Position numbers and translations under genes: made by a program. Positions 24,109 through 28,106 of a stretch of DNA of 64,000 nucleotides are shown here, in pieces. The DNA comes from an uncultured Lachnospiraceae bacterium (GTDB lineage: Bacteria; Bacillota; Clostridia; Lachnospirales; Lachnospiraceae). The DNA is taken from assembly GCA_945868435.1 (NCBI GenBank), contig CAMBLG010000001.1, positions 1 to 64,000 of the forward strand, written 5' to 3'. The notes below the pieces were generated by a model that was not told the origin of the DNA, did not search any database, and saw only the letters and a list, made by a program, of their open reading frames with translations. Each line of letters begins with the position of its first letter. Within the stretch, counting starts at the first letter, position 1.

Positions 24109-24270
24109 CCGTTCTAATTACAAGAAAAAACGCAATTAGAAATTGTTTTGTAAAAAATGCAGAATATACGTTTTTTCTATTGGAAAAATTTGATATAATA
24201 TCATTTGTCTGCATATTTCTTTACAGCGATTGCGGGCAATGCGTCACAAACGTACAAAGAGGAGGCTTCT

Positions 24271-24987
24271 ATGCTAGAACTTAAGAATATCAGTTTTCAG
24301 GCGGAGGATGAGAAGGAAATCCTAAAGGATGTCAGCCTGAAGATCGACGATAAAATTGTGGTAATTACCGGACCTAACGGCGGAGGAAAGTCAACCCTCG
24401 CCAAGGTGATCGCGGGAATTGTGACACCTACCGGAGGTCAGATTTTGCTGGATGGCGAAGATATTACCGGTTATTCTGTCACGGAGCGGGCCAATGCGGG
24501 TATCAGTCTTGCGTTTCAGCAGCCGGTGCGCTTCAAAGGTCTGACGGTCAGAGATCTGATCACGATTGCGGCCGGCAAAGAACTTAACGTGAGTGAGGCG
24601 TGCTCCTACCTGTCTGAGGTTGGATTGTGCGCCAAGGATTACATTGACCGGGAATTGAATGCAAGCCTTTCCGGCGGTGAGATCAAGCGTATCGAGATTG
24701 CCACCATTCTGGCAAGGGGAAGCAAATTCTCCATTTTCGATGAGCCGGAGGCGGGAATTGATCTGTGGAGCTTCCAGAGCCTGATCCGCGTATTTGAGAA
24801 AATGCAGAAGGAGTATAAGGGAACAATTCTGATCATCAGCCATCAGGAACGAATTCTGGATATCGCAGATAAGATTATCTATATTAAGGACGGCATGGTG
24901 GAGCAGTATGGTCCGAAGGATGAAATCCTTAAGACCCTGATCAATACCGCACAGCCCGGCTGTGACGTGTTAATGCAGAAAATCTAA
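24271..24987 (+). CDS. sufC: SufC-type ABC ATPase for Fe-S cluster assembly
   Basis: A 238-residue ABC ATPase of the SufC class, the energy-coupling partner of the SufB/SufD scaffold. Walker A GPNGGGKST is at residues 34-42, the signature is LSGGEIKRIEIA and Walker B is FSIFDEPEAGID. The start was set at the ATG behind AGAGGAGG. The next gene is a SufB/D-like scaffold, but sufS, sufU, sufE and a second scaffold gene are absent nearby, so it belongs to the reduced SufBC type. A TATAAT at 24194-24199 may be part of its promoter; the -35 is weak. Confidence 0.9.
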   Translation: MLELKNISFQAEDEKEILKDVSLKIDDKIVVITGPNGGGKSTLAKVIAGIVTPTGGQILLDGEDITGYSVTERANAGISLAFQQPVRFKGLTVRDLITIAAGKELNVSEACSYLSEVGLCAKDYIDRELNASLSGGEIKRIEIATILARGSKFSIFDEPEAGIDLWSFQSLIRVFEKMQKEYKGTILIISHQERILDIADKIIYIKDGMVEQYGPKDEILKTLINTAQPGCDVLMQKI

Positions 24988-25021
24988 GAGCAAACGATGT
25001 TCGACGATGGAGGATTACGAG

Positions 25022-25942
25022 ATGATAGATGAGATTGGAAAGAGTTTGTTAAAGGAAGTTGCGGAGCTGGATGCTCTGCCGGTCGGCGCATACAATATCC
25101 GCGTCAATGGCGAGAGCAGTGCGCGTAATACCACTGCCAATATCGATATTGTCAGCAAAGAGGACAAGTCCGGGATTGACATTATCATTAAGCCGGGAAC
25201 CAAGAACGAGAGTGTGCACATTCCGGTGGTGTTGTCCCAGTCCGGATTAAAGGAGACGGTATACAACGATTTTTATGTGGGGGAGGACTGCGATGTGACG
25301 ATCGTTGCGGGCTGCGGAATCCACAACTGCGGAACGGGAGACAGCAGCCATGCAGGTGTCCACCGCTTTTTCGTGGGGAAAAATGCGAAGCTTCGCTATG
25401 TGGAGAAGCATTACGGCGAGGGAGACGGACGCGGAAAGCGCGTTATGAATCCGACGACGGAGATGCATCTGGAAGAGGGGGCATCCGTATTGATGGAGGC
25501 AACGCAGATTTCCGGAATTGATGATACGGTCCGAAAGACCATTGCGACCCTGGCGGAAGGTGCCAATCTTGAGGTGCAGGAAAAAGTGCTGACGGACGGA
25601 GAGCAGAAGGCGGTATCAGAGTTTGTCGCAGACTTGAACGGGGAGGGATGCAGCTGTAACATCGTCAGCCGTACGGTGGCGAAGGATCAAAGTGTGCAGC
25701 ATTTCAGCAGTACGTTGAACGGAAATGCGCCCTGCAGCGGCCATACCGAGTGCGATTCCATTATCATGAATGGTGCGAAGGTGTCTGCAAGTCCAAATCT
25801 GACAGCTTCGAATGTGGATGCAAGTCTGATCCACGAGGCAGCCATCGGCAAGATTGCGGGCGAGCAGCTCTTAAAGCTCATGACACTGGGGCTTACGGAA
25901 GAGGAAGCCGAGGAAAAAATTGTTAGTGGCTTTTTAAAATAA
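25022..25942 (+). CDS. SufB/SufD family Fe-S scaffold protein
   Basis: A 306-residue protein of the SufB/SufD beta-helix family, shorter than typical SufB (about 470) and SufD (about 420). It retains the central repeats (VTIVAGCGIHNCG, HAGVHRFFVG), the SASPNLTASNVDASLIHEAAIGKI core and the C-terminal LTEEEAEEKIVSGFLK. Several cysteines are present that could hold a nascent cluster. The start was placed at the ATG eight bases after TGGAGG; an upstream ATG overlaps that ribosome site. With sufC directly before it, it forms a two-gene minimal Suf-like system. The symbol sufB or sufD cannot be chosen safely. Confidence 0.88.
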   Translation: MIDEIGKSLLKEVAELDALPVGAYNIRVNGESSARNTTANIDIVSKEDKSGIDIIIKPGTKNESVHIPVVLSQSGLKETVYNDFYVGEDCDVTIVAGCGIHNCGTGDSSHAGVHRFFVGKNAKLRYVEKHYGEGDGRGKRVMNPTTEMHLEEGASVLMEATQISGIDDTVRKTIATLAEGANLEVQEKVLTDGEQKAVSEFVADLNGEGCSCNIVSRTVAKDQSVQHFSSTLNGNAPCSGHTECDSIIMNGAKVSASPNLTASNVDASLIHEAAIGKIAGEQLLKLMTLGLTEEEAEEKIVSGFLK

Positions 25943-26042
25943 AAAACATCAATAAAATTGTTTAAATTTAATCATTCTAAATAGATATACAATGTGTTAA
26001 AATTCTTCACATAGATTGATGTATTTTAATTGGAGGAGAACT

Positions 26043-28043
26043 ATGAAGAATTACGACAAGTATGAACGGCAGTATTTTATGCCGCCGGTATGTGAATACG
26101 ATTGGGTTAAGAAAGATTACATCGACAAGGCACCAATCTGGTGCTCTGTGGATTTGAGAGATGGCAATCAGGCGCTCATCGAGCCTATGAGTCTGGATGA
26201 GAAGCTGGAGTTCTTTCAGATGCTTGTGGATATCGGTTTTAAGGAGATCGAGGTTGGTTTCCCGGCTGCATCAGAGACCGAGTTTATCTTTATGCGCACG
26301 CTGATTGAGCGGGATATGATTCCGGATGATGTGACGGTACAGGTTCTGACCCAGGCCAGAGAGCACATTATCAAGAAGACCTTCGAGGCAGTCAAGGGTG
26401 CGCCCCATGCGGTGATCCATCTGTACAATTCCACATCCGTTGCACAGCGCGAGCAGGTGTTTAAGAAGGATAAGGCGCAGATCAAGCAGCTTGCAATCGA
26501 CGGAGCAAAGCTTTTAAAGGAACTGGCGGACGAGACAGAGGGAGATTTCTCCTTCGAGTACAGCCCGGAAAGCTTCCATGGAACCGAAGTGGACTATGCG
26601 CTGGAGGTATGTAATGCCGTGCTGGATGTGTGGAAGCCGGATGACAAGAGAAAGGCAATCATCAACATTCCTGCAACGGTTGAGACTGCAATGCCTCACG
26701 TATTTGCAACCCAGATTGAGTATGTGAGCAAGCATTTGAAATATCGTGACCATGTGGTATTAAGCCTGCATCCCCACAACGACAGAGGCTGTGGCGTCTG
26801 TGATGCAGAGCTTGGAATTTTGGCAGGAGCAGACCGTATCGAGGGAACGCTGTTTGGAAACGGAGAGCGCACCGGTAATGTAGATATCGTGACCCTTGCC
26901 ATGAATATGTTTTCCTACGGCGTGGATCCGATGCTGGATCTGGCCGATATGCCGCACATTCGGGAGACCTATGAGCGCCTGACCCGCATGCATGTGGGAG
27001 ACCGTTCACCTTATGCGGGAGATCTGGTATTCTCCGCATTTTCCGGTTCCCATCAGGATGCAATTGCCAAGGGTATGGCGTGGCGCGAAGACAGGAAGCT
27101 TAAGACCTGGACGGTTCCGTATCTGCCGATTGATCCGATGGACGTGGGCAGAACCTATGACGCGGATGTGATCCGTATCAACAGCCAGTCCGGTAAGGGT
27201 GGCATCAGCTACATCTTAAAGCAGAACTTCTCCATTTCCATGCCGGAGAAAATGCGCGAGGAAGTGGGCTATGCGGTAAAGCAGGTGTCCGATGAGGAAC
27301 ACAAGGAGTTGTCTCCACAGTGGGTTTACGAGATCTTTGAGGAGAATTATGTGAACCGTATGCCGTATTTTACCATTGATGAGTGCCATTTCAAGCAGAA
27401 TGACGGAATCATGGCCGAGACGACCATTATGTTTGGTGGAAAGAAGACGGTGGTGGACGCCAACGGTAACGGACGTCTGGATGCGGTGAGCAATACGATC
27501 AAGCAGTTTTTCAATGTGAGCTATGAGTTATCCACTTACGAGGAGCATGCATTATCCCACGGTTCTTCCTCCAAGGCGATTGCCTATGTGGGAATTACCT
27601 GTGATAACAAGAATTATTGGGGTGTCGGAATGGATGAAGATATCATCAGGGCTTCCATCCATGCGCTGGTGGTAGCAGTCAACAAGCTGCCTCAGGTTGC
27701 CGGAAATGAGGGAAGCAAGGATGAGCGTTTGACGGCCATGCTGAACTTTATCCAGAACAATTACCAGACTGTTACGTTAGAGAGCATGGCAGACCAGTTC
27801 CATCTGTCAGAGCCGTACATTTCCAAATATATTAAGGACAAATCCTCCAAGACCTTTGGGGAACATGTGGCACATATCCGCATGAAGCGTGCCAAGACGC
27901 TTTTGAAGAATGGAAATATGACAGTGGAGAATATTGCATACGCAGTGGGCTATCAGAATGTGGAGCATTTTAACCGCACCTTCAAGAAGACTTTCGATAT
28001 GACTCCGATCCAGTATCGCAATACAAGCCGCGGAAACGCATAA
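26043..28043 (+). CDS. leuA: 2-isopropylmalate synthase fused to an AraC-type DNA-binding domain
   Basis: The first ~555 residues form a long (LeuA type, yeast-like) 2-isopropylmalate synthase, which condenses acetyl-CoA with 2-oxoisovalerate in leucine synthesis. CSVDLRDGNQAL (Asp37, Arg39, Asp40), HPHNDRG (His243, His245) and LFGNGERTGNVD are the active-site motifs. Residues ~425-550 are the leucine-binding LeuA dimerisation domain. Residues ~566-661 are a clear AraC helix-turn-helix pair (LESMADQFHLSEPYISKYIK, then NIAYAVGYQNVEHFNRTFKK). The reading frame is continuous, with no frameshift. GGAGGAG precedes the ATG. The gene stands alone; no leuB, leuC or leuD is adjacent. The fusion suggests a leucine-responsive enzyme-regulator. 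Confidence 0.94.
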   Translation: MKNYDKYERQYFMPPVCEYDWVKKDYIDKAPIWCSVDLRDGNQALIEPMSLDEKLEFFQMLVDIGFKEIEVGFPAASETEFIFMRTLIERDMIPDDVTVQVLTQAREHIIKKTFEAVKGAPHAVIHLYNSTSVAQREQVFKKDKAQIKQLAIDGAKLLKELADETEGDFSFEYSPESFHGTEVDYALEVCNAVLDVWKPDDKRKAIINIPATVETAMPHVFATQIEYVSKHLKYRDHVVLSLHPHNDRGCGVCDAELGILAGADRIEGTLFGNGERTGNVDIVTLAMNMFSYGVDPMLDLADMPHIRETYERLTRMHVGDRSPYAGDLVFSAFSGSHQDAIAKGMAWREDRKLKTWTVPYLPIDPMDVGRTYDADVIRINSQSGKGGISYILKQNFSISMPEKMREEVGYAVKQVSDEEHKELSPQWVYEIFEENYVNRMPYFTIDECHFKQNDGIMAETTIMFGGKKTVVDANGNGRLDAVSNTIKQFFNVSYELSTYEEHALSHGSSSKAIAYVGITCDNKNYWGVGMDEDIIRASIHALVVAVNKLPQVAGNEGSKDERLTAMLNFIQNNYQTVTLESMADQFHLSEPYISKYIKDKSSKTFGEHVAHIRMKRAKTLLKNGNMTVENIAYAVGYQNVEHFNRTFKKTFDMTPIQYRNTSRGNA

Positions 28044-28070: not shown

Positions 28071-28106
28071 GGGAGACTCGCAGATTTGCGAATCTCCCTT
28101 GTTTTT
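28071..28106 (+). terminator. Terminator after the leuA fusion
   Basis: GGGAGA (28071-28076) pairs with TCTCCC (28093-28098), extended by TCGCA/TTGCGA across one mismatch, then TTGTTTTT. It lies between convergent genes. Confidence 0.88.

Follow-up and report, generated by a model that had tools for sequence, protein, structure and literature searches.

A leuA gene that continues in frame into an AraC-type DNA-binding domain was found in a 64-kb stretch of DNA (the window) from an uncultured Lachnospiraceae bacterium, with a conserved palindromic candidate operator at its promoter. From the evidence below, I consider it likely that this leuA-araC fusion gene (26043..28043, + strand) encodes a trigger enzyme devoted to the promoter of its own gene: a working 2-isopropylmalate synthase (IPMS) which has turned into the transcription factor of that gene. 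The frame is unbroken from the ATG at 26043 to the stop codon at 28043 and encodes 666 amino acids. The ORF list starts the gene at an in-frame TTG (26016); the starts of the relatives align with 26043, and a ribosome-binding sequence, GGAGGAG, was seen by eye at 26032..26038 (+ strand). Directly upstream lie two suf-like genes (a SufC-like ATPase and a SufB/D-like protein, by eye; 24205-25942 of the window). Downstream of the fusion, a terminator-like hairpin is listed on the - strand (28071..28098), and the + strand runs into TTGTTTTTG by eye. The terminator-hairpin count of the window is 1, which is not above that of shuffles (1.8).

In the LeuA part, Pfam detected an HMGL catalytic TIM-barrel domain (HMGL-like, 7.8e-70; residues 31-308, 26133..26966), an IPMS_D2 subdomain in a region of low model confidence (residues 327-393, 27021..27221), and a LeuA_dimer regulatory, leucine-binding domain (1.4e-24; residues 423-549, 27309..27689). 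A variable linker (residues 550-562, 27690..27728) leads to the AraC-type DNA-binding domain with its two HTH motifs (residues 563-661, 27729..28025; all + strand), in which HTH_18 covers residues 582-660 and HTH_AraC residues 622-660. All five Pfam domains score above their cut-offs. The NCBIfam model PRK03739 for 2-isopropylmalate synthase gives 803.6 bits against a cut-off of 455, and the enzyme, having HMGL, IPMS_D2, and LeuA_dimer in this order, is of the LeuA2 type. The C-terminal part, about 100 amino acids with a long helix between its two HTH motifs, is of the AraC/XylS type. By domain homology, an enzyme and a DNA-binding part are thus present in one chain, which is the structure of a trigger enzyme. 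An alignment read by eye places R39, D40, E176, H243, H245, H337, and Y360 opposite R80, D81, E218, H285, H287, H379, and Y410 of Mycobacterium tuberculosis LeuA, which I take to be catalytic or metal residues, and all seven are invariant among 35 fused proteins. In an AlphaFold model made with an alignment of 35 fused proteins, an IPMS is followed by seven C-terminal helices (561-572 to 655-663). The confidence of the model is moderate (pLDDT 78.6, pTM 0.55) and poor over residues 321-390; over residues 561-660, the mean pLDDT per ten residues is 79-90. M. tuberculosis LeuA provides its top Foldseek matches. The 50 Foldseek matches listed include no AraC chain; Pfam and phmmer are the basis for calling the C-terminal part AraC-type. 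No other IPMS was found in the own genome (83.7% complete, 37 contigs), in which one weak HMGL match of 106 residues (E 4e-5) lies elsewhere. Since leuC, leuD, and a leuB-like gene are also present, the fused protein is most likely the working 2-isopropylmalate synthase of this bacterium.

Is the fusion common in relatives? In a search of 145 genomes, the own genome included, with a match running into the AraC domain as the criterion, 58 were found to carry it: 51 of the 62 of the genus, 7 of the 28 from elsewhere in the family, and none of the 55 from other families of the order. All of the 55 fused genes that were fetched (those of G021, G057, and G008 were left out) are open over 661-669 amino acids. 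Three single-contig genomes (G015, G034, and G052) have the fusion as well. Sampling the class turned up 13 fused genes in 391 (3 of the 13 outside the family), and sampling the phylum 4 in 398 (one outside the class). The carriers among the best 80 named loci (more exist) include the isolate Lachnobacterium bovis DSM 14045, records of Butyrivibrio, Dorea, Schaedlerella, Merdimonas, Roseburia, and Agathobacter, and a gammaproteobacterium, Succinimonas amylolytica DSM 2873. A search for viral relatives confirmed none. The initial annotation had described a complete IPMS continuing in frame into an AraC-type domain with both HTH motifs intact, and had named domain searches in other genomes as a check and a sequencing error joining two genes as one possible refutation. 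The open frame with its Pfam and NCBIfam matches bears out the first point, the two HTH models above cut-off and the seven-helix model the second, and the domain matches in other genomes are those of the 58 carriers. An assembly artefact or a sporadic, unselected gene fusion might be suspected from the incompleteness of the own genome and its 37 contigs; its probability is negligible, as it is refuted by the conservation of the fusion across the 58 genomes, in single-contig assemblies and isolates, and in a single clade.

This clade (SH-aLRT 99) holds all the fused rows of a quick 101-row tree built from the LeuA part (11 close fused loci were left out and 22 named loci used) and contains one nested loss. 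The gene concerned, L144 of genome G058, has lost the AraC domain (561 aa), and its operator is decayed. Succinimonas, a long branch, pairs with a Succinivibrionaceae MAG (L233; support 94) within the Lachnospiraceae rows, and the enclosing group has a support of 99. This nesting points to horizontal gene transfer, and the fusion and the operator were apparently transferred together from Lachnospiraceae to gammaproteobacteria. Neither of these two genomes has another IPMS match at E<=1e-15. As for selection, the ratios of mean dN to mean dS for 18 close fused genes (153 pairs) are 0.033 (catalytic domain), 0.039 (HTH1), 0.055 (LeuA_dimer), 0.056 (the AraC domain, which is under purifying selection), 0.078 (HTH2), and 0.30 (linker), and only the ranking of the domains is usable, since, according to the domain, 51 to 96 of the pairs have saturated dS. 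Of 124 fused proteins, 100 fit a hand-written recognition motif for HTH1. The poor conservation of the linker could mean that the AraC domain no longer binds DNA and is just an oligomerisation or allosteric module. I regard this as highly improbable, given that HTH1 is constrained about as strongly as the catalytic domain, that its recognition motif is kept in most fused proteins, and that an operator follows the fusion, as described next. The AraC domain of the fusion very likely binds DNA.

The candidate operator was exposed by aligning the upstream regions of fused genes. It is a palindrome of about 31 bp, TAAAATAAATCAA-N5-TTGATTAAATTTA. In the window, the first copy, O1, is located upstream of the promoter (25939..25969, + strand; 35.7 bits with the position weight matrix (PWM), the best score in the window). 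Its similarity continues to about 25979, and it overlaps the stop codon of the second suf-like gene (ORF 25007-25942). The second copy, O2, is inverted and lies over the -10 element and the likely transcription start, which is predicted near 26010 (O2 at 25999..26029, - strand; 30.0 bits). O1 and O2 are the only PWM matches of at least 12 bits in the window. The 55 genes of the matrix training set include the one in the window, and the pattern and the matrix were both derived from the same fused genes. The operator precedes all 55 fused genes fetched. A PWM match of at least 11 bits is absent from the fetched upstream sequence of all 35 comparison leuA genes, which come from the same genus, family, and order; since the fusion arose once, the fusion and the operator share one origin, and their co-occurrence does not represent many independent events. 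The comparison set consists of 34 unfused genes and L134, which runs off its contig at residue 503 and is thus of uncertain status; it is counted in the 35 here and in the 14 and the 10 given below. Counted by letters, L127 and L144 (the secondary loss) from the comparison set do reach 15 of 19. Fifty of the 55 operators lie within 400 bp at 15 or more of 19 letters (0.65 in shuffles), 49 of them at 16 or more (0.05 in shuffles). The remaining five, three of which lie above a T-box, match 17-19 letters and are found farther out, at -415 to -823. The matrix scores of two training sites among the 55 are as low as 12.7 and 13.1 bits.

Among the named loci, 70 of 74 (the 80 minus five not of full length and one with 164 bp of upstream sequence) have a match of at least 15 bits within 1 kb, compared with one of 63 control stretches; at least six loci (L195, L196, L197, L208, L210, and L256) match matrix-training contigs in length, so the 70 of 74 are not fully independent. 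A deeper scan found the site of L213 at -1345, above its T-box, which is probably the same as the one control match. L230, L232, and L270 (3 of the 74) have no convincing site even in deep upstream sequence. In the whole own genome, the palindrome pattern at up to two mismatches occurs at two places, O1 and O2, both at leuA. In Succinimonas, it occurs at leuA with no mismatch and at one other genomic place with one mismatch, and the upstream region otherwise looks different by eye. A looser pattern (3 mismatches of 19) gives six places in the own genome, four of them away from leuA, against three for the reversed control, and its counts across 20 genomes are likewise close to those of the reversed control. 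A palindrome is unusual for AraC proteins, whose sites are mostly direct repeats. IPMS family enzymes are homodimers. The LeuA part of the fusion would dimerise and offer two AraC domains to the two-fold symmetric operator, which would explain a palindrome rather than direct repeats. Helical phasing of the O1-O2 distances was considered but is not claimed, as the values scatter (36-41, 58-64, 68-78, and outliers).

The promoter geometry is rigid. In the window, an extended -10 element, TGTTAAAAT (25995..26003, + strand), stands without a TTGAC at the -35 place, and its -10 hexamer (25998-26003) is covered by O2. A strong O1 is present in 114 fused promoters, and in 103 of these TGnTAnnnT occurs within 40 bp of it (about 4% in shuffles). 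The spacing is 23-26 bp in 101 of the 114, a number which, for the same overlap with the training contigs, is not fully independent, and it is exactly 25 bp in 86. None of these 101 promoters has TTGAC at the -35 place; a residual -35-like similarity of 3-4 of six letters is left in 86 of them (above random places) and of five letters in five. Where a T-box is present, all 10 comparison genes have TTGAC in the 80 bp preceding it, and none of the 20 fused genes does (Fisher 3e-8, relatedness ignored). The best-promoter score separates fused from unfused genes weakly (mean 3.9 vs 4.9, p 0.04). It seems that O1 replaces the -35 box in fused promoters. Since they have no consensus -35 and carry O1 in its place, their layout is that of an activator-dependent promoter. 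The ancestral layout is likely a -35 promoter with a T-box, as in other leuA genes. As for the second site, 27 of 46 begin between -1 and +4 relative to the initial base of the -10 hexamer, which should be a repressing position.

These data suggest the following mechanism. A dimer on O1, in place of the -35 box, would recruit RNA polymerase to the extended -10 element and activate leuA; activation from O1 is probable. In the window and in many relatives, binding to O2 over the -10 element and the transcription start would repress the gene, and I think that such repression is rather probable. What shifts the protein between the activating and the repressing states may be leucine at its LeuA_dimer domain or the enzyme's substrate or product state. 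The conservation of the domain makes leucine sensing by the fusion plausible, and leucine is the likeliest ligand, with a slightly better than even chance of being the signal. One chain would thereby close the feedback on both enzyme activity and enzyme synthesis.

A T-box leader was also looked for. The window has none (no Rfam match at the gathering score), and 10 of 14 comparison loci (L125-L138) have one. It was found in 20 of 83 fused loci scanned with Rfam (L232 and L233 were outside the scan), which is not a frequency, since part of these loci were picked for far-upstream sites. A second operator is present in 0 of the 20 fused loci with a T-box and in 38 of the 63 others (Fisher p 6e-7), a table biased by the same choice of loci. 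On the tree, this exclusion is never reversed, and about two informative pairs give a median p of 0.5. Thus, the data suggest at most that O2 replaced the T-box. As a history, I would give an even chance to the AraC domain having been gained once, the -35 of its own promoter having been taken over (making an obligatory autoactivator), a second, symmetric start-site operator having replaced the ancestral leucine T-box in several lineages, and the circuit having spread horizontally with its operator.

Does the fusion control other leucine genes? The names leuS, ilvN, LysR, suf, and threonine synthase were assigned by eye. The ilv-leu regions were fetched for 17 of the 20 genomes searched, and no site of at least 12 bits was found in the 600 bp before leuC, ilvN, and ilvC in these 17. 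Elsewhere in these regions, weak PWM matches occur in L085 (13.5 bits, inside an ORF) and L099 (13.2 bits). Of 16 loci, 3 have a partial site in the leuS promoter (18.8, 21.8, and 12.7 bits), and leuS is possibly a second target in some relatives; upstream of leuS in the own genome, the best PWM score is -9.7, below the threshold. At L093:7069, L094:6830, and L104:10310, leuS promoters with T-box-like leaders hold a partial operator-like TTAAAATAAATCAT at the -10. The genes ilvB, ilvD, and ilvE and the transporters, which were not singly located, are covered in the own genome by the genome-wide palindrome pattern. The partial leuS sites and the two matches just above 12 bits are what a leucine-responsive regulator of the whole leu/ilv regulon could be credited with. 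It is very unlikely, in view of the empty regions before leuC, ilvN, and ilvC, the score at leuS in the own genome, the pattern counts near the reversed control in the 20 genomes, the palindrome matched in the own genome by the leuA sites alone, and the 276 kb between the fusion gene and leuC. With no site before these genes and the palindrome just at leuA in the own genome, the fusion looks like a regulator of itself, and a broad leucine regulon under it is not supported. The proposal of the initial annotation that the chain is a trigger enzyme stands in part. The fusion is conserved, its HTH motifs are intact, its catalytic residues are kept, and the region in which sites were to be sought (25943-26042) holds a sharply conserved candidate operator; the control of leu and ilv operons, before which it had also proposed to look for sites, is not supported by the results above.

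It was also considered whether the operators are real but read by another regulator, a separate AraC or LysR protein, the fused AraC domain doing something else. The own genome encodes further AraC-domain proteins, with up to 40% identity to the fused domain, and a LysR-like gene (L084:6869-7768, contig C1 of the own genome, by eye) is divergent from leuCD and adjoins it. The reading of O1 as a LysR box (ATCAA-N5-TTGAT resembles one) was rejected and is retained solely within this explanation. The explanation is unlikely, because no PWM match lies upstream of the 35 comparison leuA genes, the site accompanies the fusion in Succinivibrionaceae too, and the gap between leuC and the LysR-like gene (L084:7760-7860) has a different palindrome by eye, ATAACCTTA...TAAGGTTAT. 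For this last reason, control of leuCD by the leuA site was also rejected. The LysR-like gene is possibly a second regulator of leucine genes. Self-regulation by the fused protein is kept as the preferred reading.

How does the fusion compare with known systems? M. tuberculosis LeuA2 (PDB 1sr9/3fig), the best phmmer and Foldseek match, has the same LeuA domains and catalytic residues, but the match ends with the LeuA regulatory domain, to which the fusion adds its C-terminal AraC domain. Enzyme-regulator fusions are a known kind. PutA, BirA, and NadR are trigger enzymes with a fused DNA-binding domain; like the fusion, they have both functions on one chain, while their enzymes and DNA-binding folds differ. 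The Ada methyltransferase carries an AraC-type DNA-binding domain and an enzyme in one chain, acts in DNA repair, and uses methyl transfer as its signal. Like the fusion, it pairs the two, but it is not an allosteric biosynthetic enzyme. The T-box leader of leuA controls the same gene, but it is RNA-based. In yeast, the IPMS activity of Leu4 controls leucine gene transcription through Leu3, the two proteins being linked by diffusing alpha-isopropylmalate. The link from IPMS to transcription resembles the proposed circuit, which would hold it in one chain instead of two proteins. I found no trigger enzyme of leucine synthesis with a fused DNA-binding domain. PMC3602430 lists a reference on the trigger-enzyme concept. 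In the titles and abstract openings among the matches listed from the open-access literature, which leaves most subscription journals outside, no IPMS-AraC fusion is described. What appears to be new here is the conserved palindromic candidate operator upstream of fused leuA genes with its promoter geometry. If the proposal is true, sensing, catalysis, and transcriptional control form a complete feedback circuit in one protein of the leucine pathway. Its evolutionary stages would still be visible, from unfused genes with a -35 and a T-box, through fused genes with one operator and a T-box, to fused genes that have two operators and lack the T-box. How an enzyme becomes a regulator would thereby be open to direct testing. 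The fusion may also serve gut-bacteria engineering as a compact and possibly leucine-responsive part.

A few other loci are worth recording. A second, unfused LeuA2 lineage exists in the family (L145-L164; about 50% identical, without operator or T-box), and several genomes carry it beside the fusion. A Mailhella MAG (L228) has the fusion on a contig and an ordinary LeuA elsewhere, possibly a binning error. In the own genome, an ORF resembling AP2/HNH homing-type proteins by eye (L084:9666-10535) lies between leuD and a threonine-synthase-like gene. On contig C1 of the same genome, a weak HMGL-like match lies directly before a gene of the isocitrate/isopropylmalate dehydrogenase family (G000:C1:327014-328768), and my guess is that the two are a Re-type citrate synthase pair.
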